Source of the DNA: Azoarcus sp.
Lineage (GTDB): Bacteria; Pseudomonadota; Gammaproteobacteria; Burkholderiales; Rhodocyclaceae
Direction of reading: 5' to 3'
Assembly (NCBI GenBank): GCA_030656215.1
Contig: JAUSOD010000020.1
Coordinates: forward strand, 1-49,000
DNA length: 49,000 nucleotides
In this document: positions 4,247 to 33,763 of the stretch, one piece after another
Layout: every line of letters begins with the position of its first letter
How positions within the stretch are numbered: the first letter of the stretch is position 1
Translations under genes and position numbers: made by a program
The notes under the pieces: generated by a model
Told to the model about the DNA's origin: nothing
Seen by the model: only the letters and a program-made list of their open reading frames with translations
Databases searched by the model: none

Positions 4247-4786
4247 TCATTCGCTTGCGGCTGCTTTGTCCAACTCGGGAAACAGCACGTCGGTAAAGCC
4301 GAAGCGGCTGAAGTCGCGCACCCGCATCGGATACAGGGTGCCGTTGAGATGGTCGCATTCGTGCTGCACCACGCGGGCGTGGAAGCCTTCCACGCTGCGG
4401 TCGATCGGATTGCCTTCGGGGTCGAAGCCCTGGTAGCGGATGCGTCGGTAACGGGGGACGACCCCGCGCAGGCCCGGCACCGACAGGCAGCCCTCCCAGT
4501 CTTCCTCCTGCTCTTCGCTCAGCGGGGTGATGACCGGGTTGAGCAGGACGGTTCGCGGCACTTCGGGGGCGTCGGGGTAGCGTTCGCTGTGCTCGAAACC
4601 GAAGATCACCACCTGCAGGCCGACGCCGATCTGCGGCGCAGCCAGGCCGACGCCGCCGGCGGCGGCCATGGTGTCGAACATGTCGGTGATGAGCACGCCG
4701 AGCGCCGGCGTGCCGAAGGCGGTGACCGGCGCGGCAGGCTGCAGCAGGCGGGGATCGCCCATCCTGAGTATGGTGTGTACGCTCAT
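4247..4786 (-). CDS. def: peptide deformylase
   Basis: A 179-residue protein that removes the formyl group from the N-terminal methionine of nascent proteins, a cytoplasmic metalloenzyme. All three family motifs are present: [10 protein letters not shown] (45-54), EGCLSVP (98-104, metal ligand C100) and HECDHL (142-147, ligands H142 and H146, catalytic E143). Length is normal. It lies 45 bp downstream of the metal exporter on the same strand and may be cotranscribed. It is not next to fmt, the usual partner of the housekeeping def, so it may be a second copy; that is an inference from context only. Confidence 0.93.
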
Positions 4787-4831
4787 CGGGTGTCGGTCTC
4801 CGGGGAAAGTGGATGCATGCGTCGGCCTGGC

Positions 4832-5740
4832 TCAGCGCAGGCGCAGGATGCGGATTGCGCCGGACAATACCAGCAGGCCGATCAGGGTGCCGATCACCCA
4901 GTCGGGCCATGCCTGCCCGCTCCAGCTCACGAGCAGGCCAGCGGTGATCACGCCAAGGTTGGCCAGGACATCATTGGCCGAGAATATATAGCTTGCTTTC
5001 ATGTGTGCGCCACCGTCGCGATGGCCCGAAATCAGCACCAGGCAGGCAATATTGGCCACCAGGGCCAGCGCGGCGATACCGATCATGGCGATGTCCTCGG
5101 GCATCGAGCCGGCGTACATGCGGCGTGCGGTTTCGCCAAGCGCGCCCAGCGCAAGCAGCAGTTGAAGCAGACCGGCGAGGCGTGCGGCGTTCAGTTTGTG
5201 GCGTGCGGCACGTCCTACTGCATAGAGCGCCACGCCATAGACGGCGGCGTCGGCAAACATGTCCATGGCGTCGGCGATCAGTCCGGCCGAGTGCGCCCAC
5301 CAACCGGCCCCGAGCTCGACCACGAACATGACCGCATTGATCGCCAACAGCATCCACAACACCCTGGCTTGGGCGCGCTCGTCGGCGGGCCGGGTGGCCA
5401 GCGGCGGCGCGTCGGCAAGGGCTAGCGAGGTGGCGAGTTCGGCGCCGTAGCCGAGTGGCAGCAAGCGCTCGAGTATCGCCGCGGCTTCGCCCGCATGGTC
5501 GACGCTCAGGCGGCGGCCGGGAAGATCGAAATGCAGGCCGCTGATCGGACTGTCAGCCAGGCGCATGCGGATCATGTGCTCCTCCGACGGGCAATCCATA
5601 CCCGGGATGTGGAAGATGGAGCGCGTTGTGGCAATTGCCGTTTGTGCCGTCGAGCTCGTGTCGCTACCGTCGGCGTTGCCTGCGCTGCATGCACAGCGAC
5701 CCTGGCAGGATGAAGATGAGGCGGAAGAGGTTGAAGTCAT
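4832..5740 (-). CDS. CDF-type heavy-metal exporter with N-terminal HMA-like domain
   Basis: A 302-residue inner-membrane protein. The N-terminus is Ser/Cys-rich (C12, C16, C18), followed by a heavy-metal-associated domain with GMDCPSEE (C50, about residues 40-105), then about six membrane segments of a cation diffusion facilitator (about 128-300). In TM2 the usual HxxxD metal site reads DMFAD (DxxxD), and in TM5 the usual histidine position is Phe with NDVLAN following, so metal preference may differ from the zinc exporters. It probably exports a divalent metal in exchange for protons. No regulator gene is recognisable beside it. The fusion of an HMA head to a CDF channel is found in a subgroup of cation transporters; the metal cannot be told from the sequence. 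Confidence 0.82.
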   Translation of the reverse strand: MTSTSSASSSSCQGRCACSAGNADGSDTSSTAQTAIATTRSIFHIPGMDCPSEEHMIRMRLADSPISGLHFDLPGRRLSVDHAGEAAAILERLLPLGYGAELATSLALADAPPLATRPADERAQARVLWMLLAINAVMFVVELGAGWWAHSAGLIADAMDMFADAAVYGVALYAVGRAARHKLNAARLAGLLQLLLALGALGETARRMYAGSMPEDIAMIGIAALALVANIACLVLISGHRDGGAHMKASYIFSANDVLANLGVITAGLLVSWSGQAWPDWVIGTLIGLLVLSGAIRILRLR

Positions 5741-5933
5741 GCTGGTGCTTTATCAGCGCTATGCGATATACGGAGTTTAGCGCCTTCTCCCCCGCACCAC
5801 GATCTCGGCGGTGAGCTGTTGCAGGATTCCGGCGACCGCTTCGGATGTGGCCCGCTACCGCTGACAGGGCTAGCCTGCGGGGGCGTTTTCGGCCAAGCTG
5901 TCGGCGTACTCCCTGCCGCTTCCGGATAAATCG

Positions 5934-6338
5934 ATGTCCGTCATTCTTGCTGCCGACCTGCTGCGCCGTGAGGGCGATGCCTGCGGCGATCGCAGTCACC
6001 TCGTCCTGATCTTTTGTGCCGAATGGTGCGGTACCTGCCGTTCCTTTCGCCCGGTACTGGAGATGCTTGCCGCGGCGCATCCGCAGATCGGTTTTGCCTG
6101 GCTCGACATCGAGGATGATGCCGGGCTTGCAGGTGATATCGAGGTCGAGAGCTTTCCGACCGTGGCGATTCTGCGCGGCAGCCAGCCGCTGTACTTTGGC
6201 GCTACGCTGCCGTTGGAGGACGTGGTAGCTCGACTGATCCGATCTGCGCTGAGCGCGGGCGGGCCGCTGGTCGAGGTGCCGGAGGAACTCGGCGCACTGG
6301 CTGCAAGGATCTTCGCCGCCGCGGCACAAGACGGTTGA
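5934..6338 (+). CDS. thioredoxin-like protein
   Basis: A 134-residue protein with a single thioredoxin fold. The redox motif is WCGTC (C32 and C35), not the WCGPC of housekeeping thioredoxin, and ESFPTVAIL supplies the cis-proline. No signal peptide is seen, so it is probably cytoplasmic and serves as a reductase or redox carrier. It stands alone between divergent genes; its 3' end faces rsgA with an 18-bp gap. No clear Shine-Dalgarno precedes ATG 5934, but no alternative start fits the fold better. Confidence 0.85.
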   Translation: MSVILAADLLRREGDACGDRSHLVLIFCAEWCGTCRSFRPVLEMLAAAHPQIGFAWLDIEDDAGLAGDIEVESFPTVAILRGSQPLYFGATLPLEDVVARLIRSALSAGGPLVEVPEELGALAARIFAAAAQDG

Positions 6339-6356
6339 TGGTGATTGTGGTCGGCC

Positions 6357-7295
6357 TTACCAGCCCGGATTGACGCGCCGGGCTTCGGCGATTTCCTTTC
6401 TGATGATGCGGTAGTGCTCGAAGCGGCGCGGATGGATCTCGCCCGATTTGAGGGCGCCCAGCAGTGCGCAGCCCGGTTCGGCTTCGTGGCGGCAGTCGCG
6501 AAAGCGGCATCGACCGAGGTGGGGGCGAAACTCGATGAAGCACTCGGCTACCGTGTCGGCCGACAGGTGGGCCAGGCCGAAAGCCTGCAGGCCGGGGCTG
6601 TCGATCAGCCAGCCGTCTCCGAGCGGGTAGAGGCGGGCGAAGGTGGTGGTGTGTTTGCCGGTGTCGAGTGCGGTGGAGATCTCGCGGGTGGCAGCTTCCG
6701 CTTCGGGCACCAGGGCGTTGGTGAGGGTGGATTTACCCATGCCCGACTGCCCGACCAGGATGCTGCGCTGGCCCGATAGTGCTTGCGTCAGCGCCAGTGC
6801 GCCGTCGAGTGCGGAGACCTCGATGACCTGATAGCCCAGCGCGACGAAGGGTGCCAGTTGCGCCCGGGTGAAGGCGAGGCGGTCTGCGATGTCAGCCTTG
6901 TTGAGCACGATCAGCGGGGTGATGTCCTGGCTCTCGGCCGCCGCGATGCAGCGCGAGATCAATAGATCGGAGAAGCCCGGTTCGGTCGCCACCACGATCG
7001 CGACGTGGCTCAGGTTGGCGGCGATCAGCTTTTCGCGGAACGCGTCCGAGCGCCACAGCAGGTTGTGCCGGGTGTGCAGGTGCTCGATGACGCCCTGTTC
7101 GTGACCGCCGGGTGCGACGTCGACTTCGTCGCCACAGGCATAGATGCTCTTTTTGCCGCGGGTGGAGCAGCGCAGCCGGCCCTGCGCGGTGTTGATTTCG
7201 TAGTGGCGTCCGAAGGCTGCGACGATGGTGCCGGGGATGGTCCCGTTGAGAGGCGCGGCCTTGCCGCGCTTGCTGCTGGCGCCGGGGGTGCTCAC
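6357..7295 (-). CDS. rsgA: ribosome small-subunit-dependent GTPase A
   Basis: A 312-residue circularly permuted GTPase that acts late in 30S subunit assembly. Order of motifs is diagnostic: an OB-fold N-terminus, then G4 (LNKAD), then G1 (GQSGMGKST), then G3 (DSPG), then a C-terminal zinc site with the pattern CRFRDCRHEAEPGC. Length matches the family. Its start overlaps the last four bases of the upstream cytochrome c gene, which suggests cotranscription, although the two functions are unrelated. Confidence 0.95.
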   Translation of the reverse strand: MSTPGASSKRGKAAPLNGTIPGTIVAAFGRHYEINTAQGRLRCSTRGKKSIYACGDEVDVAPGGHEQGVIEHLHTRHNLLWRSDAFREKLIAANLSHVAIVVATEPGFSDLLISRCIAAAESQDITPLIVLNKADIADRLAFTRAQLAPFVALGYQVIEVSALDGALALTQALSGQRSILVGQSGMGKSTLTNALVPEAEAATREISTALDTGKHTTTFARLYPLGDGWLIDSPGLQAFGLAHLSADTVAECFIEFRPHLGRCRFRDCRHEAEPGCALLGALKSGEIHPRRFEHYRIIRKEIAEARRVNPGW

Positions 7296-24768: not shown

Positions 24769-24949
24769 ATCGCGAAACTACTTGGCCAGACGGGTGAGTT
24801 CATTCGTGACCAGATTCACAACTGCCATCTGTTATGCCGCGATTTGACCCGCGGTGAACTAAGCTCAAACTGAATCAGGTGCCCAACGAACAGGAGAGCT
24901 TTCACTGCGGCAGTGCCACAATGGATATGAGGTGACGTGAGGTGAGGTG

Positions 24950-27391
24950 ATGAGCTGGCAGATGCCGGATGCGAGCACAGGCGATCACCGCCCGGGCGAG
25001 GCGCCGTGGGCGGGGAGCAGGGGCTTGCGGGTTCTCCGGGCGGTTCATTCCGCGATCATTGCTGCGCGCGATGAAGCGAGCTTGTTGCCGGAAGTCTGCC
25101 GTGCCGTGGTGGACACGGCGGGTTATACGTCGGCCTGGATCGGGCGCCTGACGAAGGATGGCGCGACGGTGCAGCCGGTCGCTGAGCACGGCGCGCTTGA
25201 GGATGACTTCGGGCGGCTGCAGTTGGTGCCGGCGGACCGGTCTGAAGGGGAAGGAGGTATCGGCAAAATCCTCCGCGAGGGACGGCCATGGGTTGTGGCC
25301 AGTCCGGTGCATCGGTTGACGGGCGCGGTAGCGGAATCCGCACCCGCACCCGGTCTGGTTGCAGTGCTGCCGCTGGGTAGCGGAACAGAAGCGATGGGCG
25401 CGCTGATCGTCGGAGATGCAGACCCGAGCGCATTCAATGCGCTTGACCTCGACCTGTTGGGCGACGCCGCCCGCAGCCTTGCGTACGGGATTGAGTCCTT
25501 GCGTTCGGCGCAGAGGCATGCCCGGGCCGAGGATGAGTTGCGCCGTGTCGACCGTGCGCGACGAACGCTGAGCGCCGTCAACCGGACGCTGGTCCGGGCG
25601 GCGAACGAAGAGGCTCTGCTTGTGGATATCTGCCGCATCCTCGTTGAGGAGGGTGGCTATCGCTACGCGTGGGTCGGCTATGCCCTGCATGACGAGGCCA
25701 TGGGCGTGCAGATCATGGCCCATGTCGGGGTCGAAAAGGCGCACCTCGATGGACTGCAGATCACCTGGAACGACACCGAGCGTGGCAGGGGCGCCACCGG
25801 GATTGCGATCCGTACCGGCTTGCCGAGCATCGGTCGCAACATGCTCACCGATCCGGATCTGACGCCGTGGCGTGACGAAGCCCTTCGGCGTGGTTACGCT
25901 GCGATCAGCGCCTTCCCGCTACATGTGGGGGGAGAGGTCATCGGCAATTTGACCATCGCGGCTGCCGAACCGGACGCCTTCGATGCGGCCGAAGCCGACC
26001 TGCTCGGCGAACTCGCCGGCGATCTGGCCTTCGGAATCGAAACCCTGCGCACGCGCGAGCGTAGCCGCCAGGCCGAGGCGGCGATCAAACGGATGGCTGA
26101 ACAGGACCCACTGACCGGCCTGCCCAACCGATGGCGTCTGCGGCTGCGGCTCGACGATGAGATCGGGCGGGCCAGGACGGGCCATCGCCCGCTTGCACTG
26201 TTGATGCTGGGAATAGACCACTTCCAGGAGATAAACGAAACCTTGGGCTATCACCAGGGTGATGCGATGTTGTGCGAGGTTGCCGCCCGTGTCGGGCGTG
26301 CCGTGGTCGATACGGCGAACATCGCGCGTATGGGCGAGGCGGAGTTTGCCATTCTGTTGCCCAACAGCGATGCCGGTGCCGCATCCCGAATGGCACAGCG
26401 GATCCTGACCGAGATGTTCGATCCGGTGGCGATCGGCGAGGTCATGCTCGATGCCGGTGGCAGCATTGGCATTGCGGTGTTTCCCGGTCACGGCACTGAG
26501 TCGGATACCCTCATCCGGCGCGCCAATGTGGCTATGCACCAGGCGCGCCAGCATGGCCACGGGCAGGCACTGTACACCGGTGGGCGGGATCAGGAGTGCG
26601 CGCGGCGGCTGGCGCTGATCGGCGATCTGCACCGGGCCATCGACGGCAACGAATTGCGGCTCTTCTGCCAGCCCAAGGTGCGCTTTTCCAACCGCGAGGT
26701 GTGTGGGGTGGAGGCGCTGGTGCGCTGGGAACATCCGCAACTCGGCATGCTGTGGCCCGATGAGTTCATCGGCCTGGCCGAGCACAGTGGCCTGATCAGC
26801 CCGCTGACCGACTGGGTGATGCAGGCTGCTTTCCGCCAGAGCTATGTGTGGCGCCAGGCTGGGTTGCGGCTGCCCCTTGCGGTCAACCTGTCGGCTCGCG
26901 ATCTACGCGACCCCAAGCTGATCGAGCGGGTGCGCAACCTCCTTGCCACCTGGGGCGGCGAGCCCGAGGGGGTGCAGTTCGAGCTGACCGAAAGCGCACT
27001 GATGCAGGATCCGGCTGGCGGCCTGGAGAGCATGAGGCGCTTGAAGGACCTGGGCATCGAGCTGTTCATCGACGATTTCGGCACGGGCTACTCTTCGCTC
27101 GCCTACTTGCAGAAGCTGCCGGTGGATGCGATCAAGATCGACCGCTCCTTCGTGCTCGACATGCTGTCGGACACTGATTCGGCGGTGATCGTCCGCTCAA
27201 CCATCGACCTGGCCCACGACCTTGATCTGGAAGTGGTGGCCGAGGGGGTCGAAGACCGTGCCGGGTGGTCGCATCTCGCGGCGCAGGGCTGCGACGTCGC
27301 CCAGGGCTATGTGGTCAGTCAGCCGATCCCGGCCGAGGCCTATGCAGAGTGGCGGGCGGATGGGTCGTTCGAGGCCCGGATGATGGCCTGA
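24950..27391 (+). CDS. GAF-GAF-GGDEF-EAL c-di-GMP phosphodiesterase with degenerate GGDEF
   Basis: A protein of 813 residues without membrane segments. Two GAF-like domains (about 25-180 and 205-365) are followed by GGDEF (about 380-540) and EAL (about 555-800). The GGDEF signature reads GEAEF (462-466), so cyclase activity is probably lost. The EAL domain keeps EALVRW (E588), NLSARDL, ELTESAL, IDDFGTGYSS, IKIDRSF, AEGVED and QGYVVSQP, the full set for metal and substrate binding, so it should cleave c-di-GMP to pGpG. ATG 24950 follows GAGGTGAGGTG; GTG 24947 just before it is an alternative. The GAF domains suggest a small-molecule or redox input. Confidence 0.92.
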   Translation: MSWQMPDASTGDHRPGEAPWAGSRGLRVLRAVHSAIIAARDEASLLPEVCRAVVDTAGYTSAWIGRLTKDGATVQPVAEHGALEDDFGRLQLVPADRSEGEGGIGKILREGRPWVVASPVHRLTGAVAESAPAPGLVAVLPLGSGTEAMGALIVGDADPSAFNALDLDLLGDAARSLAYGIESLRSAQRHARAEDELRRVDRARRTLSAVNRTLVRAANEEALLVDICRILVEEGGYRYAWVGYALHDEAMGVQIMAHVGVEKAHLDGLQITWNDTERGRGATGIAIRTGLPSIGRNMLTDPDLTPWRDEALRRGYAAISAFPLHVGGEVIGNLTIAAAEPDAFDAAEADLLGELAGDLAFGIETLRTRERSRQAEAAIKRMAEQDPLTGLPNRWRLRLRLDDEIGRARTGHRPLALLMLGIDHFQEINETLGYHQGDAMLCEVAARVGRAVVDTANIARMGEAEFAILLPNSDAGAASRMAQRILTEMFDPVAIGEVMLDAGGSIGIAVFPGHGTESDTLIRRANVAMHQARQHGHGQALYTGGRDQECARRLALIGDLHRAIDGNELRLFCQPKVRFSNREVCGVEALVRWEHPQLGMLWPDEFIGLAEHSGLISPLTDWVMQAAFRQSYVWRQAGLRLPLAVNLSARDLRDPKLIERVRNLLATWGGEPEGVQFELTESALMQDPAGGLESMRRLKDLGIELFIDDFGTGYSSLAYLQKLPVDAIKIDRSFVLDMLSDTDSAVIVRSTIDLAHDLDLEVVAEGVEDRAGWSHLAAQGCDVAQGYVVSQPIPAEAYAEWRADGSFEARMMA

Positions 27392-27494: not shown

Positions 27495-27534
27495 CGCTTA
27501 GGAAAAACTTAGCGTTTCGGCAAGTCCCATTTAG
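27495..27534 (-). promoter_or_regulatory. three-half-site array, CTAAG type, 11/22-bp spacing (array 1)
   Basis: On the plus strand CTTAG (27497), CTTAG (27508) and TTTAG (27530) are spaced 11 and 22 bp. On the minus strand this reads CTAAA-N17-CTAAG-N6-CTAAG. The core CTAAGTTTTTCCTAAGCG (27512-27495) matches 16 of 18 bases of array 2 upstream of the E1 genes, which is in the opposite orientation. It lies 96 bp before the cytochrome c start. It is probably an operator for an OmpR/PhoB-type winged-helix protein. Confidence 0.6.
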
Positions 27535-27629
27535 GAATCGTCCGCGAACAGTGGGTGCAAACTGCGAAACACCTCGGGAACGGGCTGTACAAGCCGCCGG
27601 GGGAACACACCATCCCGCAGGAGACACCC

Positions 27630-28115
27630 ATGTTCAAACTCTCGATGACGCTCGCAGCCGCGGTGCTGCTTGCCGCCCCCCAGATCAGTCTTGCAGGCGA
27701 AGCCAAGCCTGCACGCACGGAGCTCGAGCGAGGCCGCTACCTCGTGCAGATCGCGGGCTGCAACGACTGTCATACACCGGGCTATGCCGCCAGCGACGGC
27801 AAGGTGGCCGAGCGCGAGTGGCTCACCGGCGACCAGCTCGGCTGGCAGGGTCCGTGGGGCACGACTTACGCGGCCAACCTGCGTGCCTATTTCTCCCGCG
27901 TTTCAGAGGCCGAGTGGTTGCAAACAGCGCGTACGGCAAGCTATCGGCCCCCGATGCCGTCGCCGATTCTGCGAGACATGGCGGACGAGGATCTGCGCGC
28001 GCTGTACCGTTTCGTCCGGACGCTGGGCCCGGCCGGCGAGGCGGCACCGGCCTATGTGCCACCCGGACGGGAGCCGATCGGTCCGGTCGTGCGTTTCCCG
28101 ATGCCGCCGGGCTGA
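27630..28115 (+). CDS. periplasmic monohaem cytochrome c
   Basis: A 161-residue protein with a Sec signal peptide (about residues 1-22, ending ISLAG) and one haem motif CNDCH at about residue 46. MPSPILRDMADEDLRALYRFVRTLG provides a likely methionine ligand and the C-terminal helix of a class I cytochrome c. The tail is proline-rich. ATG 27630 follows GGAG. It is the first gene after array 1 and shares strand with the split-barrel-like and regulator genes, so it may be the electron acceptor of the system. Confidence 0.85.
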   Translation: MFKLSMTLAAAVLLAAPQISLAGEAKPARTELERGRYLVQIAGCNDCHTPGYAASDGKVAEREWLTGDQLGWQGPWGTTYAANLRAYFSRVSEAEWLQTARTASYRPPMPSPILRDMADEDLRALYRFVRTLGPAGEAAPAYVPPGREPIGPVVRFPMPPG

Positions 28116-28205
28116 CATGCGCGCCACCATGCCCGAGGACGGGCGGAGGTGCTTGTTTTCACGACAGGTGGCAGCGACGCAAAAGCTGGCTATTATTCCA
28201 GCACG

Positions 28206-28703
28206 ATGCTGGAGCAAAACCCACCGATCCTCGATGCCGCCCATGCCGATTTCGTTGTCGGCGGGGTGTCGATCAATGCGGCAGCCTGCCGTCGCGGCGG
28301 TTTCCCCGCGCTTGCGCGCGGGGTGGGCTGCCGCCTGTCGGCAGACCGCAGCAGTCTGACCCTCCTGTTTGGCGCTGCGGCGGCGGCCGATCTGCTCGAG
28401 GCCGTGCGGCGCAGCGGCGCGATCGCGGCCGTGTTCAGCGATCCGCCCACACACCGGACGGTACAGCTCAAGGGCACCGACGCGCTCGTCTTGCGACCGG
28501 AGCCCGGCGACCGCGAGCTTGTCGCGGGCTATCGCGATACCTTTATGCGCGTGTTGGGCTCGCTCGGTTACAGTGAGGACATGACGCGTGCGCTGCTTGC
28601 GTGCCCGCTTGACGAGCTGGTGACGGTGCGCTTCTCACCCTCGTCCGCGTTCACCCAGACGCCAGGTCCGCGGGCCGGCGAAGTGCTCGGTGGTGCGACA
28701 TGA
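28206..28703 (+). CDS. small split-barrel (PNPOx-like) protein, uncharacterised
   Basis: A protein of about 165 residues. FVVGGVSINAAAC, SLTLLFG and TVQLKGTDALVL look like strands of a pyridoxamine-phosphate-oxidase-like split barrel, a fold that often binds FMN or haem; this assignment is tentative. Start is unclear: ATG 28206 has no Shine-Dalgarno, while GTG 28149 would add 19 residues. A TATTAT sits 10 bp before ATG 28206. Its stop overlaps the next start (ATGA), so it is translationally coupled to the regulator. Confidence 0.6.
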   Translation: MLEQNPPILDAAHADFVVGGVSINAAACRRGGFPALARGVGCRLSADRSSLTLLFGAAAAADLLEAVRRSGAIAAVFSDPPTHRTVQLKGTDALVLRPEPGDRELVAGYRDTFMRVLGSLGYSEDMTRALLACPLDELVTVRFSPSSAFTQTPGPRAGEVLGGAT

Positions 28704-30052
28704 CGATCAAGCTCGATGCCATACGCGAGTGTCTGGAGGGTGTGGTGCCGGGCAATATCGCGACCTGTGCGCCCGATGGCATGCCCAACATCGCCTACCT
28801 GTCGCAGATACAGTATGTCGATGCCGACCATGTGGCCCTGTCCTACCAGTTCTTCAACACCACGCGGCGCAACATCCTTGCCTCGCCCTACGCGCGGGTG
28901 ACGGCGATCGATCCACGCACCGCAGCCCATTACCGGCTGAGCCTGCAGTATCTGCGCACCGAGGATAGCGGGCCCCTGTTCGAGAACATGAAGGCGCGCC
29001 TCGCCGGGATCGCATCGCACACGGGCATGAGCGGCGTGTTTCGCCTGCTCGGTTCCGACATTTACCGCGTGCTCGACATCGAGCGGGTGCCCGGCGAAAG
29101 CCTGCCGCCGCCACCGCCACGACGCAATCTGCTCGCTGCCTTGCGCGCCTGTACCGAGCGCCTGTGCGGCGCGGCCGATCTGGACGATTTGCTCGCACGA
29201 GTGCTCGATGGGCTGGGGGCGCATCTGGACATCGATCATGCGATGGTCCTGATGCTCGACGAAGCGGGCGGATCGCTGTACACGGTGGCCAGCAGAGGTT
29301 ACGCGACGTCCGGAGTCGGCTCCGAGATCGCGCTCGGCGATGGCGTGATCGGTGTTGCGGCGCGCGAGCGAACACCCATCCGCATTGGTCACTTCACCGC
29401 CGAATACAGCTATGGGCGGGCGATTCGCGACAGCCTGGAAAAGAGCGGTGCGGCGGGAATCGAAACCGAAATTCCCCTGCCGGGACTTGCCGAGTCGCGC
29501 AGTCAGCTGGCGGTGCCGATCCTTGCCTGCCAGCGCCTGATCGGCATGCTTTACGTCGAGAGCGCGCAGGATTTGCGCTTCAGCTACGACGACGAGGATG
29601 CGCTGGTCGCACTTGCCGGCCAGCTCGGTGCCGGAATCCGTTTGTTGCAGCAGAGCCAGGAGGCGCACGACGAGCCCGCGGTGCTCACCGAGCCAGCTCC
29701 ACCGTCGGGCGGACAGCCCGTGCTTGTGCGTCACTACCGCGAGAACGACAGCGTATTTCTCGACGGCGACTACCTGATAAAGGGCGTGGCCGGCGCTATT
29801 TTCTGGGCGCTGGTGCGTGATCATGCGGATACGGGCCAGACCCTGTTTTCGAATCGCGAGTTGCGGCTCGACCCGCGGATCCGTCTGCCGGACCTGAGTG
29901 ACAATCTTGAGGCACGGCTGATTTTGCTGGCCCGTCGTCTGCTCGAACGCGGGGCTCCGGTGCGGATCGAAAAGACCGGCCGTGGCCGTTTCCGCTTGTG
30001 TGTCGAGCGCCCACTGACGCTGGTCAGCAGCGGTACTTCCGGGCAAGCCTAA
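28700..30052 (+). CDS. split-barrel/GAF/winged-helix regulator
   Basis: A 450-residue soluble protein. Residues 1-130 look like a PNPOx-type FMN-binding split barrel (GNIATCAPDGMPNIAYLSQIQYVD, NTTRRNILASPYARV). A proline linker follows (about 132-142), then a GAF domain (about 150-315, with ASRGYA and GDGVIGVAARERTPIRI). The C-terminus (about 345-440) fits a winged helix of the OmpR type: LLARRLLERG then IEKTGRGRFRLCV as the wing. It could sense a redox or flavin-linked ligand and bind DNA directly. No receiver domain or phosphorylation site is present. It overlaps the upstream gene by 4 bp and lies between the two CTAAG arrays. Confidence 0.72.
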   Translation: MTIKLDAIRECLEGVVPGNIATCAPDGMPNIAYLSQIQYVDADHVALSYQFFNTTRRNILASPYARVTAIDPRTAAHYRLSLQYLRTEDSGPLFENMKARLAGIASHTGMSGVFRLLGSDIYRVLDIERVPGESLPPPPPRRNLLAALRACTERLCGAADLDDLLARVLDGLGAHLDIDHAMVLMLDEAGGSLYTVASRGYATSGVGSEIALGDGVIGVAARERTPIRIGHFTAEYSYGRAIRDSLEKSGAAGIETEIPLPGLAESRSQLAVPILACQRLIGMLYVESAQDLRFSYDDEDALVALAGQLGAGIRLLQQSQEAHDEPAVLTEPAPPSGGQPVLVRHYRENDSVFLDGDYLIKGVAGAIFWALVRDHADTGQTLFSNRELRLDPRIRLPDLSDNLEARLILLARRLLERGAPVRIEKTGRGRFRLCVERPLTLVSSGTSGQA

Positions 30053-30088
30053 GAATTCCCTCGCAGCATCCTAAGTGTTTGCTAAGCG
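30049..30088 (+). promoter_or_regulatory. three-half-site array, CTAAG type, 22/11-bp spacing (array 2)
   Basis: CTAAG occurs at 30049, 30071 and 30082, at offsets 0, 22 and 33 bp, so all three face the same side of the helix. The core CTAAGTGTTTGCTAAGCG (30071-30088) is 16/18 identical to array 1. It ends four bases before the -35 of the E1 promoter, the position expected for an activator that contacts RNA polymerase. The first half-site overlaps the stop region of the regulator gene. Confidence 0.65.
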
Positions 30089-30091
30089 CGT

Positions 30092-30119
30092 TTGCGCCTG
30101 CGCTTCACGTCGCTAGAGT
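30092..30119 (+). promoter_or_regulatory. sigma70-type promoter of E1 operon
   Basis: TTGCGC (30092-30097) and TAGAGT (30114-30119) are 16 bp apart. Both boxes are imperfect, which fits an activated promoter under array 2. The leader would be about 60 bases. Confidence 0.5.
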
Positions 30120-30184: not shown

Positions 30185-31147
30185 ATGAGCGTGAACACAT
30201 ACGACGGGCGGGTGCAGGATCTGCTGCAGACGATGCTGCTGATCCGGGCCTATGAGGAGCGGGCGGCTGCGCTGCAGGCGGAGTCGGGGGTGCCCGGCAC
30301 GTGTACCTCGGTCGGGCAGGAGGCGTCGGCGGTGGGCGTGGTCGCGGCGCTCGGTGCCGATGACCTGATCCTCACCAACCATCGCAGCGCAGGCCACCTG
30401 CTTGCCCGCGGTGCCGATCCGGGCCGCCTGCTGGCCGAGGTGATGGGGCGCCGCGCGGGCTACTGCAAGGGCAAGAGTGGTTCGCTGCATATTTCTGCGA
30501 AGGAGCTCGGGGTGATCCTGACCTCGACCATCGTCGGCGGCGAACTCGCGCTGGCAACCGGCGTCGGCTTGTCGCAGAAGATGCTCAAACGTCCGGGCGT
30601 GGTGGTCTGCTTCTTCGGCGACGGTGCCGCCTGCGAGGGACGCTTTCACGAGTCGCTCAATCTCGCCGCGGTATGGCAGCTACCGATTCTCTACGTGTGC
30701 GAGAACAATCAGTGGCAGGCCTTCGTGCACCGGCGTGAAACCATGCTCGGCGACAGCATTGCTTCGTGGGCGACACCCTATGGCATCGACAGTGCGACGG
30801 TGGATGGCAACGATGTGGAACAGGTGCGTGCGCTCGCGACCGAGGCCCTGGACAGCATCCGCGCGAGCGGCCGTCCCTTCCTGCTCGAGACTCGAACCTA
30901 CCGTCTGCGCGGTCACTTCGAACCCGATGACCAGGCCTATGTGGACCCCGACGAGCTTGCCGCGTGGCGCGCACGCGATCCATTGCCGCGCCTGCAGGCA
31001 CGCTTGCTTGAGTCAGGGCAGCTCGACGCCCGGGCACTGTCGGCAATGGAGTCCGATGCACAGCGGCGGATCGATGCCGCAGTCGCCTTCGCCATCGATT
31101 CGCCGTATCCGGCGATCGACGAGCTCGTTACCGACGTTTACGCCTGA
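30185..31147 (+). CDS. thiamine-diphosphate-dependent dehydrogenase E1, alpha subunit
   Basis: A 320-residue protein of the pyruvate/branched-chain/acetoin dehydrogenase E1-alpha family. The ThDP motif is GDGAACEGRFHE...ENNQW (GDG-N-NN), and RLRGHFEPDDQAY replaces the HGHS loop. E1-alpha with E1-beta decarboxylates a 2-oxoacid, or cleaves acetoin, and passes the product to a lipoyl E2. No E2 or E3 gene is present here, so the true substrate and acceptor are open. ATG 30185 follows GAGGA. It leads a two-gene operon with the beta subunit. Confidence 0.88.
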   Translation: MSVNTYDGRVQDLLQTMLLIRAYEERAAALQAESGVPGTCTSVGQEASAVGVVAALGADDLILTNHRSAGHLLARGADPGRLLAEVMGRRAGYCKGKSGSLHISAKELGVILTSTIVGGELALATGVGLSQKMLKRPGVVVCFFGDGAACEGRFHESLNLAAVWQLPILYVCENNQWQAFVHRRETMLGDSIASWATPYGIDSATVDGNDVEQVRALATEALDSIRASGRPFLLETRTYRLRGHFEPDDQAYVDPDELAAWRARDPLPRLQARLLESGQLDARALSAMESDAQRRIDAAVAFAIDSPYPAIDELVTDVYA

Positions 31148-31158
31148 GGAGTACCGAG

Positions 31159-32115
31159 ATGGCACACATGACCGTTCAGGAAGCGATCGACCAGGCTCTG
31201 GCCGAGGAGATGGCGCGCGACCCCTCCGTTCTCCTGCTTGGCGAGGGGGTGGCGACCAAGCGCCGGGCGCTGGTGGATGCATTTGGCGCCGAGCGCGTAC
31301 GCAACACACCGCTGGCCGAGGGCATCATCGCCGGCACCGCGGTGGGTGCGGCGGCGACCGGGCTGCGACCGGTGATCGACCTTCTGTTCGCGCCCTTCCT
31401 GTGTTACGCGATGGACGAGCTGGTAAACAGCGCCGGCAAATTGCGCTACCTGTCGGGCGGGCAGTTCTCGTTTCCGCTGGTAACGATGGCAATGACCGGT
31501 GCCGGCTGGGGCGTCGGCGCCCAGCACAACCACAACGTCGAGGCCTGGTTCGCGCACGCACCGGGGCTCAAGGTGGTCATGCCGGCGAGCGTCGCGGACT
31601 TCAAGGGCCTGCTCAAGGCCGCGATCCGTGACCAGAATCCGGTGCTGTTCTTCATCGATATCGGCCTTGCCTACACCAGCGGCGACATACCGGACGGTGA
31701 GCATCTGGTGCCGCTCGGCCAGGCGGTGGTTCGGCGTCCGGGCGAGGCGGTGACCCTGATCTCGTATGCCAAGACCGTGGCTGTGTGCGAACAGGCGGCG
31801 CAGACGCTGGCCGGGCAGGGGATCTCGGCCGAGGTGATCGACCTGCGCACGCTAAAGCCGCTGGACGAGGCAAGCATCCTTGCTTCGGTGCGCAAGACCG
31901 GTCGCGCAGTGATCGTGCACGAAGCCAGCCGCAGTGGTGGCATTGGTGCGGAAGTGGCCGCCACCATCGGCGAGCATGCGTACGACGCGCTCAAGGCCCC
32001 GGTGCTGCGCCTGGCGGGCCCCGACGCGCCGGCCCCGGCGAGCTATCCGCTGGAGCAGGCTTTCGTGCCGCAGCCCGATGCCGTGGTGGCGGCGGTGAAG
32101 CGCTTACTTGGATAG
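31159..32115 (+). CDS. thiamine-diphosphate-dependent dehydrogenase E1, beta subunit
   Basis: A 318-residue transketolase-like partner of the alpha subunit. It has the GEGV start, NTPLAEGIIAGTAVGAA and the C-terminal transketolase domain (EVIDLRTLKPLD, VIVHEASRSGGIGAEVA). At the place where most E1-beta proteins read QHSQS it reads QHNHN, which may alter the active-site channel. It begins 11 bp after the alpha stop with GGAG as ribosome site. Together the two form the usual alpha2beta2 E1. Confidence 0.88.
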   Translation: MAHMTVQEAIDQALAEEMARDPSVLLLGEGVATKRRALVDAFGAERVRNTPLAEGIIAGTAVGAAATGLRPVIDLLFAPFLCYAMDELVNSAGKLRYLSGGQFSFPLVTMAMTGAGWGVGAQHNHNVEAWFAHAPGLKVVMPASVADFKGLLKAAIRDQNPVLFFIDIGLAYTSGDIPDGEHLVPLGQAVVRRPGEAVTLISYAKTVAVCEQAAQTLAGQGISAEVIDLRTLKPLDEASILASVRKTGRAVIVHEASRSGGIGAEVAATIGEHAYDALKAPVLRLAGPDAPAPASYPLEQAFVPQPDAVVAAVKRLLG

Positions 32116-32201: not shown

Positions 32202-32693
32202 TCAGTAGAGGAATGGAATCAACTTGCGAACGCGCTGACGATAGGCCGCATAGTCCGGGAAGCGGGCCATCAGCCAGGCTTCCTCGCGGCGCGACTTGAT
32301 GTCGAAGAACACAAACAGCAGCGCGGCGTAGGCCAGCGTGAGCCAGCCCTGGACGAAGAGTGCCCAGCCAAAAGCCATCAGGATCAATGCGCAGTAGATG
32401 GGGTGGCGCACCACGCCATACAAGCCGCTCTCCACCAGCGTGGCCTCATCCTTGGGGTGGGGCAGCGGAGTGAGGTTGGGGCCGAGGTGGAGGACGGCCA
32501 CGATCGACGCACCCGCTCCAAGCGCAAGCAGGATCCACGCTGCGGATGTTGACACCGTAGTCAACGCCGGCGGCCATTCGGGCAAGCCGAAGGCCGTGCG
32601 CGGGCCCAGTGCGATCAGCGCCAGGATCAGGCCCTGCACGACGACATACCACTCGCCGCGTGCGCCTTTCCACCATGCGGCTCGATCTTTCAT
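32202..32693 (-). CDS. ICMT/PEMT-like membrane methyltransferase
   Basis: A 163-residue membrane protein with about four hydrophobic segments. GLYGVVRHPIYCALILMAFGWAL and the end RVRKLIPFLY are typical of the isoprenylcysteine carboxyl methyltransferase / phospholipid methyltransferase group, in which the RHPxY region and the C-terminal tail bind S-adenosylmethionine. Substrate unknown, perhaps a lipid. ATG 32693 was chosen by the start of the conserved part. It is divergent from the DUF3014-like gene. Confidence 0.82.
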   Translation of the reverse strand: MKDRAAWWKGARGEWYVVVQGLILALIALGPRTAFGLPEWPPALTTVSTSAAWILLALGAGASIVAVLHLGPNLTPLPHPKDEATLVESGLYGVVRHPIYCALILMAFGWALFVQGWLTLAYAALLFVFFDIKSRREEAWLMARFPDYAAYRQRVRKLIPFLY

Positions 32694-32932
32694 GTCCGAC
32701 TCTGAAGTGGTACAAGGCAAACATGATGGGCAACACCCTGCACTGGCGCAAGCTGTCTGCAGTGGCGGGGCCGGGCGGTGAGTGGCACGATGCCGAACAA
32801 GGCGTGCCCCTGCAATGCGACGATGCACTGCAATGGCATGCATGGCCGTGGCAATTGTTATTGTCTCGATCAGGAACGCTGCCGCAGCGGTGGACTCCTA
32901 TCGGGCGTATTCATCGCAATGGAGAGAAGGCA

Positions 32933-33763
32933 GTGAGCTCAACTACAGTAAAACTCGTGGTCGTTGGCGGACTGGCGATCGCTGCCGCCGTGGCCTACCT
33001 GGTCTTGCGTCCGGCTCCCGTGGCGACGGAGTCGCCGACCTCGGTCGTGGTGGCGCCGTCACCGCCACCGGTGAACGAGGCCGTGGGGGTGATAGAGCCG
33101 ACCGTACGTTTTCCGATTCCGGTGCTGGAGGAGGAGCCCGCTGTTGCGGTTGAAGAGAGCGTGCCTGCGCCGGATCTGAATAGCAGCGACACGGTCCTCG
33201 GCGAGGCGCTGGCAGGTCTGTTCGGCTCGGGGGGCTGGAGCGAACTGGTGATCGTGAAGGATCTGGTGCGCCGCATCGTGGTGACGGTGGACAACCTGCC
33301 GGGCGAGCAGATGCCATGGGCGCGCTCGCCGCTTCAGCGGGCCGGAGGCGGATTTCAGGTCGTCGGGGGCGAGGACGGGCTAAGAGTTGCACCGGAAAAT
33401 GCGGCGCGCTACCTTCCCTATGTGCAGTTGGCCGAGGCGGTGAACAGTGCGCGGCTGGTGGCCATGTATGTGCGCCTCTACCCGCTGTTTCAGGCCGCCT
33501 ACGATGAACTGGGCTATCCGTCGGCCTACTTCAACGATCGGCTGGTGGTGGTGATCGACCACCTGCTGGCAGCGCCGGAGCTGACGGAGCCGATTCGGCT
33601 GGTTCAGCCCAAGGTGCGCTACCATTTCGAGGATCCGGCCCTGCAGCAAGCCTCCGCCGGACACAAGATCATGCTGCGCATGGGCGTGGACAATGCCCGC
33701 CGGATCAAGGCAAAACTGCGCGACATTCGCCAGCAGCTGACTGGCGCAGTGCCGCAGAACTGA
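32933..33763 (+). CDS. DUF3014-like membrane-anchored protein
   Basis: A 276-residue protein with one N-terminal membrane anchor (about residues 6-24), a proline-rich periplasmic linker (about 25-75) and a globular domain with SELVIVKDLVRRIVVTVDNLPG, YVQLAEAV and LVRLYPLFQAAYDELGYP, the blocks of DUF3014. GTG 32933 is chosen because GGAGAGAAGG lies just before it; the frame is open further upstream but without family resemblance. Role unknown, probably envelope-associated. Confidence 0.75.
   Translation: MSSTTVKLVVVGGLAIAAAVAYLVLRPAPVATESPTSVVVAPSPPPVNEAVGVIEPTVRFPIPVLEEEPAVAVEESVPAPDLNSSDTVLGEALAGLFGSGGWSELVIVKDLVRRIVVTVDNLPGEQMPWARSPLQRAGGGFQVVGGEDGLRVAPENAARYLPYVQLAEAVNSARLVAMYVRLYPLFQAAYDELGYPSAYFNDRLVVVIDHLLAAPELTEPIRLVQPKVRYHFEDPALQQASAGHKIMLRMGVDNARRIKAKLRDIRQQLTGAVPQN

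Follow-up and report, generated by a model that had tools for sequence, protein, structure and literature searches.

A conserved four-unit operator and its probable one-component regulator in an electron-transfer regulon of Azoarcus sp.

Operators of regulators with OmpR-type DNA-binding domains are the closest described counterparts of the elements reported here. PhoP boxes of Salmonella are functional when placed 12, 23 or 33 nt from the -10 element in direct orientation and 27, 37 or 48 nt from it in reverse orientation (PMC3335776), repeats spaced 11 or 22 bp precede the -10 element of promoters served by SARP activators (PMC10936776), and the PmrA half-site CCTAAG (PMC3973317) resembles the repeated unit of two oppositely oriented arrays that we analysed in a 49,000-nucleotide stretch of Azoarcus sp. 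(contig JAUSOD010000020.1 of assembly GCA_030656215.1; hereafter the window). The arrays bracket genes encoding a cytochrome c, a split-barrel protein (SB184) and a putative regulator (REG), and the second array precedes the genes of an E1 dehydrogenase pair. Based on the comparisons below, both arrays are very probably the operator of REG, which would be a one-component activator, built of split-barrel, GAF and winged-helix domains, of an electron-transfer regulon. Hemerythrin genes, which turned out to be among the array targets in relatives, have been noted in benzoate clusters of Rhodocyclales (PMC6449761); that article contains no mention of "TAAG", "GAF" or "acetoin". A description of such a regulator or its targets was not found in searches of a library of open-access articles, which leaves out most subscription journals.

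Four-unit arrays in the window and in related loci

An earlier note on this DNA had listed CTAAG half-sites at 30049, 30071 and 30082 on the forward strand and a mirror set of CTTAG at 27497, CTTAG at 27508 and TTTAG at 27530, and all six are present in the sequence. The offsets of 0, 22 and 33 bp that it had given are real in both arrays, but its reading as three units overlooked one: each array consists of four tandem units at 11-bp pitch, 42 bp as modelled, and the strong half-sites stand at 0/22/33 because unit 2 of the four is weak. The three-unit description was therefore replaced. Unit 1 of array 2 overlaps the stop codon of REG. The features of the locus are:

27495..27536, minus strand: array 1, putative four-unit operator 5' of cytochrome c (33.0 bits leave-one-out; genome-wide E 0.0018); units on the minus strand 1 CTAAA 27530-27534, 2 TTGCC 27519-27523 (degenerate), 3 CTAAG 27508-27512, 4 CTAAG 27497-27501
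27558..27563, plus strand: putative -10 element CAAACT of the cytochrome c promoter, assigned from its position 22 bases from the unit-1 edge of array 1
27630..28115, plus strand: cytochrome c, 161 aa, haem motif CNDCHT
28149..28703, plus strand: SB184, PNPOx-like split-barrel protein, 184-codon frame, without Pfam match
28700..30052, plus strand: REG, putative regulator with a PNPOx_N split barrel (residues 6-79 matched), GAF (158-313) and a winged-helix-like C-terminus (341-444)
30047..30088, plus strand: array 2, putative four-unit operator 5' of E1 (38.8 bits leave-one-out; genome-wide E 1.5e-5); units 1 CTAAG 30049, 2 CTCGC 30060, 3 CTAAG 30071, 4 CTAAG 30082
30114..30119, plus strand: putative -10 element TAGAGT of the E1 promoter, assigned from its position 26 bases from the unit-4 edge of array 2
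30185..31147, plus strand: E1 alpha subunit of a 2-oxoacid/acetoin-type dehydrogenase, start set by the Pfam match and a ribosome-binding site
31159..32115, plus strand: E1 beta subunit

Judged on the window alone, the pair pattern is weakly above chance. CTAAG-N6-CTAAG with at most one mismatch matched twice, both times exactly, where a mean of 0.38 was expected, and six of 100 shuffles reached two. This shuffle result is what speaks for the matching offsets being a chance repeat; its probability is negligible given the conservation across loci, the rarity in the genome and the fixed -10 geometry, and the conservation seen in the comparative results rules it out for practical purposes. In the 5.08-Mb genome (113 contigs) exactly two exact matches were found, which are the two window arrays; the reversed pattern had five. 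In relatives the arrays follow REG homologues. The operator model, run on the source genome, likewise found only the two window arrays, so the regulon is small enough for complete testing.

For the comparison, the 46 loci of one scan were joined by 25 family regions and, after removal of three duplicates (L129, L133 and L136, repeats of L004, L005 and L017), gave 68 REG loci including the window; L048, a 29% partial match, was also set aside. With a matrix trained leave-one-locus-out, an array was found in 57 of the 68 loci with 23.7-55.7 bits, against a maximum of 11.2 bits in a null of one Markov-simulated copy per locus (68). In 568 kb, made up of the 46 loci and 20 kb of the window, CTAAG pairs were spaced by 11 bp nine times, by 22 bp twice and by 6 and 33 bp once each. 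TTAAG, entered as a control word, was likewise spaced by 11, 22 and 33 bp, but is no true control because it fits the Y of the unit YTAAR. Exact CTAAG-N6-CTAAG occurred at 20 sites in 37 REG genomes, seven of them within the fetched REG loci. The general scheme is YTAAR-N6, CTCAG-like-N6, YTAAR-N6, YTAAR, with units 1, 3 and 4 strong and unit 2 weak: in an alignment of 40 arrays, from which L019 was excluded since both strands score, each base of TAA in the three strong units holds 1.4-1.7 bits, and unit 2 retains mainly one T.

Target genes and promoter geometry

The arrays stand before genes for cytochrome c, E1-alpha/beta, hemerythrin-domain proteins (PF01814), CcoN-like proteins (small membrane proteins like a CcoN/COX1 fragment or DUF2871) and diheme cytochromes (TIGR03806). 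The earlier note had proposed that cytochrome c, split-barrel protein, regulator and E1 pair form one regulon, and this is strongly supported: the arrays recur 5' of the same genes, track REG and occur at unlinked copies of the targets. Beyond that set, arrays of other lineages appear, from their position, to serve the hemerythrin-domain, CcoN-like and diheme-cytochrome genes.

Geometry was determined for 63 arrays that score 20 bits or more and have a gene of the regulon no more than 450 bp away; where there were several, the closest one was counted. In 46 arrays this gene lies beyond unit 1 (cytochrome c 19, hemerythrin-domain 19, diheme cytochrome 3, CcoN-like 3, E1 2), in 17 beyond unit 4 (E1 16, CcoN-like 1). 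On the unit-1 side a TANNNT hexamer starts exactly at base 22 after the array in 36/46, where other offsets average 0.09 and 2000 base shuffles gave a maximum of 5 at any offset; among the ten exceptions are the window's own cytochrome c promoter and those of close relatives, with hexamers like CANACT. Beyond unit 4 the hexamer starts at 25-27 in 9/17 and at 35-37 in 7/17, together 16/17, and these two positions, about 26 or 36 bases, are one helical turn apart. A -35 consensus was not seen at the array edge, where it would fall; for the E1 promoter of the window this position would be 30091-30096 (TTTGCG).

The same geometry was found outside the model. Of 26 further regions, 19 entered an independent test, L186-L190 were checked apart, L337 turned out to be L036's linked array, and neither a 20-bit array nor a regulon gene was present in L338 (E 0.027). 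Eighteen of the 19 arrays (18 distinct) precede a known regulon gene and all 19 have an expected -10 element, 17 at base 22 on the unit-1 side and two only at base 36 on the unit-4 side. By comparison, the top-scoring site of each of four REG-negative genomes (L186, L187, L189 and L190; 25-32 bits) has neither -10 element (0/4). The geometry matches that of class II activator-dependent promoters, with the operator at -35 and a fixed distance to the -10 element (36/46, 16/17 and 19/19), and the arrays lie where an activator would.

Two of these regions deserve a separate remark. The nineteenth array (L340, in the region around 4427-6735; 50.4 bits; -10 at offset 22) stands before a frame without annotation that looks like a secreted protein, and the next frame reads as di-haem peroxidase-like; these genes are a possible further member of the regulon. 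In L189 (REG-negative genome G075), the 26.7-bit array-like site in the region around 4376-4859, which lacks a -10 element, lies just 5' of a CcoN-like small membrane protein and may be a decayed array.

The orientation of array 1, which points away from the cytochrome c gene, had led the earlier note to consider repression or autoregulation. Repression from array 1 was not supported: all 38 arrays of at least 20 bits that serve cytochrome c or hemerythrin genes point away from them (38/38), and the -10 element lies at a fixed, activator-like distance. REG might still bind as a repressor, or mainly for autoregulation, given that array 1 precedes an operon seemingly containing REG and that one operator can stand between divergent genes, as in L330, where both the hemerythrin and the E1 gene have their -10 element. 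Against this, the arrays are clear of the -10 element, at or upstream of -35 and in fixed phasing, a conserved -35 is missing, and arrays also precede genes unlinked to REG; repression from array 1 is disfavoured because of the -10 geometry, and we consider this alternative decidedly unlikely.

Co-occurrence of array and REG across genomes

A sequence-only model of the 40 arrays was run on 121 genomes of the family (26 REG-positive, with a REG match at E<1e-40) and on 274 genomes of the class (7 REG-positive). Four weak REG matches in the family (G005, G017, G100 and G116) and 55 matches weaker than 1e-100 in the class were counted as REG-negative. The same was done with G035, which has an array 5' of cytochrome c and SB184 at the end of a contig, with the hexamer CAGACT at offset 22. 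In the family, an array was found at E<=0.02 in 22/26 REG-positive but only 2/95 REG-negative genomes (Fisher 5e-18), at E<=0.05 in 23/26 versus 6/95 and at E<=1 in 24/26 versus 10/95. The two REG-negative matches at E<=0.02 were at contig ends (G054) and inside a coding frame that resembles a ribose-phosphate pyrophosphokinase (G061). In the class, 6/7 REG-positive and 0/267 REG-negative genomes had an array at E<=3e-4; one REG-negative genome (G332) joins at E<=1e-3, and at E<=0.1 a total of 35 genomes match. The seventh REG-positive genome of the class (G370) has a 44.7-bit array before cytochrome c. Of 34 REG genomes, 31 have a match at E<=0.05. Nine of the 34 had none in their REG locus, and six of these nine are among the 31.

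Matches were also found away from REG. They lie about 8 kb from REG in G125, before an E1 operon 14 kb from REG in G094 and before a cytochrome c gene 1.9 Mb from REG in G067. G072 (contig C1; L147, L148 and L185) has two REG copies, at 4.25 and 4.81 Mb, and an unlinked hemerythrin gene with its own array at 3.83 Mb.

These data bear on the question of whether the binder is encoded elsewhere. A classical PmrA/QseB-type response regulator could bind the arrays, with REG merely neighbouring its targets: the PmrA half-sites CTTAAT and CCTAAG, spaced by 5 bp (PMC3973317), share core and 11-bp pitch with the arrays, and the genome encodes 19 Trans_reg_C proteins, whereas the C-terminus of REG is unrecognised as one. 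Since the PmrA box is so alike, motif likeness alone could not name the binder; co-occurrence favours REG. The four-unit arrays follow REG over the 121 and 274 genomes, a comparison in which REG was the regulator examined, and cytochrome homologues in genomes without REG have no array: five homologues in four REG-negative genomes lack it (G003, 71% identity; G051, 55%; G071, 41%; G006, 33% and 32%), whereas homologues with 47-72% identity in REG-positive genomes carry it, with the exception of G018. We therefore regard a separate response regulator as unlikely.

The candidate regulator and its described counterparts

In REG, the N-terminus matched PNPOx_N just above the cut-off (28.7 versus 28.1 bits) and GAF was also matched; both were found in 45/45 REG members, and neither a receiver family nor a BTA-type family was listed, the domain order also being unlike that of SARPs. 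The AlphaFold2 model of REG has a mean predicted local distance difference test (pLDDT) of 83.7, and residues 341-444, mostly >80, are predicted to fold in the order E-E-E-H-E-H-H-E-E-E, which we take to be that of an OmpR-type winged helix, and bear a wing-like motif, KTGRGRF. The claim of the earlier note that REG ends in an OmpR/PhoB domain has the predicted topology and the wing-like motif in its favour; the domain is recognised neither with PF00486 nor in profile comparison. For SB184, a PNPOx-like split barrel is predicted (pLDDT 90.7); Foldseek gave 93 PDB matches at E<=0.001, mainly PNPOx-like proteins among the 50 listed (E 3.5e-7, template modelling score about 0.45). Its frame overlaps that of REG by ATGA, and the ATG at 28206 may be its real start, the opening residues of the frame being disordered.

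Several observations weigh against REG as the activator that binds the arrays. The first group concerns its C-terminus, for which no Pfam family was matched in REG and none was common to the 45 members at E<=10. REG is not among the 19 PF00486 (Trans_reg_C) matches of the genome; hhalign of the C-terminus against the response-regulator domains of 15 of these 19 proteins scored no better than two control domains; and Foldseek with whole REG listed only GAF-type or split-barrel proteins among the top 50, none of them aligned to the C-terminus (in BFVD, one split-barrel match was listed). The second group concerns the arrays. Eleven of the 68 loci have no linked array (L008, L010, L014, L021, L022, L023, L033, L046, L047, L140 and L146), several of them cut by contig ends near REG. 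Three of 34 REG genomes (G434, G144 and G435) are without match at E<=0.05, and G018 and G104 have no model match at E<=1, G104 having a 21.5-bit site by matrix. Second, unlinked cytochrome copies in the REG-positive genomes G042 and G049 lack an array; the G049 cytochrome c near REG (L289) has a 48.1-bit array about 400 bases upstream. At least four REG-positive family genomes (G000, G115, G031 and G091), and G000 in the class sample, supplied arrays to the model. Finally, the -10 element of the window's own cytochrome c promoter, CAAACT, deviates from TANNNT, as do those of close relatives with CANACT.

A further point of this kind is that SB184 adjoins REG in 45/45 loci (the 46 loci of one scan, weak L048 left out); it is as tightly linked as REG, and co-occurrence therefore cannot tell the two apart. 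SB184, alone or in an obligate complex with REG, could thus be the DNA-binding or sensing part. This we hold to be very improbable, as SB184 is predicted to be a plain split barrel and the winged-helix-like domain is predicted in REG only.

Binding and activation by REG are inferences from these patterns, as are the operon structure and a signal linked to redox state, flavin or haem; with REG as the likely activator the following model is proposed. REG would be a cytosolic one-component regulator, co-encoded with SB184, that binds the four 11-bp units (YTAAR-N6) head to tail, as monomers or two dimers. The promoters would be of the sigma-70 type, with a -10 element and without a conserved -35, and REG would stand either at the -35 position or immediately 5' of it, activating them by recruiting polymerase where a good -35 is missing. 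The operator would be asymmetric, with a promoter on the unit-1 side whose -10 element lies at 22 bases (cytochrome c, hemerythrin-domain protein, diheme cytochrome) and one on the unit-4 side (E1) with a -10 element about 26 or 36 bases away. Two sets of genes would be activated by REG in the window: E1 alpha/beta and cytochrome c-SB184-REG, the latter amounting to positive autoregulation if these genes form one transcript. The split-barrel or GAF domain of REG might read a redox signal, which is plausible because the targets are electron-transfer or O2/NO-type proteins.

The neighbouring genes were inspected as well. The cytochrome c is below the Pfam cut-offs; among solved structures, it is closest to the cytochrome subunits found in dehydrogenases of fructose and alcohol. 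The E1 alpha frame is already open from 30092. The source genome encodes four E2-type proteins; with these as queries (E<=1e-8), no E2 homologue was found in the 25 E1-bearing loci, L184, L330, L331 and the window, an absence that applies within the DNA stretches covered, and as a control the queries recovered themselves and one another. The E1 pair in this set is often beside c-type cytochromes. It is followed in the window by a methyltransferase-like gene (32202-32843, minus strand) and a DUF3014 frame (32717-33763, plus strand), which seem to overlap on opposite strands, probably because a start was chosen too early; both genes are also found 3' of E1 in L004. Directly upstream of array 1, a GAF-GAF-GGDEF-EAL protein is encoded (24947-27391), which, judged by the arrays, lies outside the regulon.

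A broader picture can be drawn, speculatively and with doubt as to the whole: an undescribed family of split-barrel/GAF/winged-helix activators in Beta-, Gamma- and Alphaproteobacteria might sense a flavin- or haem-linked redox signal, drive two divergent promoters at different fixed spacings from one asymmetric four-unit operator and switch on an uncharacterised respiratory module, in which E1 alpha/beta without linked E2 would pass electrons to c-type cytochromes, with the hemerythrin-domain protein as O2 or NO partner. What the unnamed regulator gains here is a candidate operator and a set of targets, both defined, together with promoters that can be tested. Genes whose role is unclear, for E1 dehydrogenase, cytochrome c and hemerythrin-domain proteins, are tied into one regulon across many Proteobacteria.

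Among known systems, the PNPOx-like split barrels that bind FMN (flavin mononucleotide), F420 or haem, such as Rv1155 and HupZ, share the predicted fold of SB184 and the family of the REG N-terminus, but SB184 has no Pfam match and is paired with a GAF/winged-helix protein. SARPs such as AfsR are activators with an OmpR-type DNA-binding domain, as proposed for REG, and like REG have no receiver; their DNA-binding domain is N-terminal and accompanied by BTA (PMC10936776), whereas the candidate domain of REG is C-terminal, behind PNPOx_N and GAF, and targets and phylum differ from those of REG. From the OmpR/PhoB-type regulators (PhoB, PhoP, PmrA) REG differs by a C-terminus unrecognised by sequence profiles, by split-barrel and GAF domains in place of a receiver and by arrays of four units instead of two half-sites, but direct repeats at 11-bp pitch are common to both. 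The PhoP box, like the arrays described here, lies at set helical distances from the -10 element and is used in both orientations at different distances (PMC3335776).

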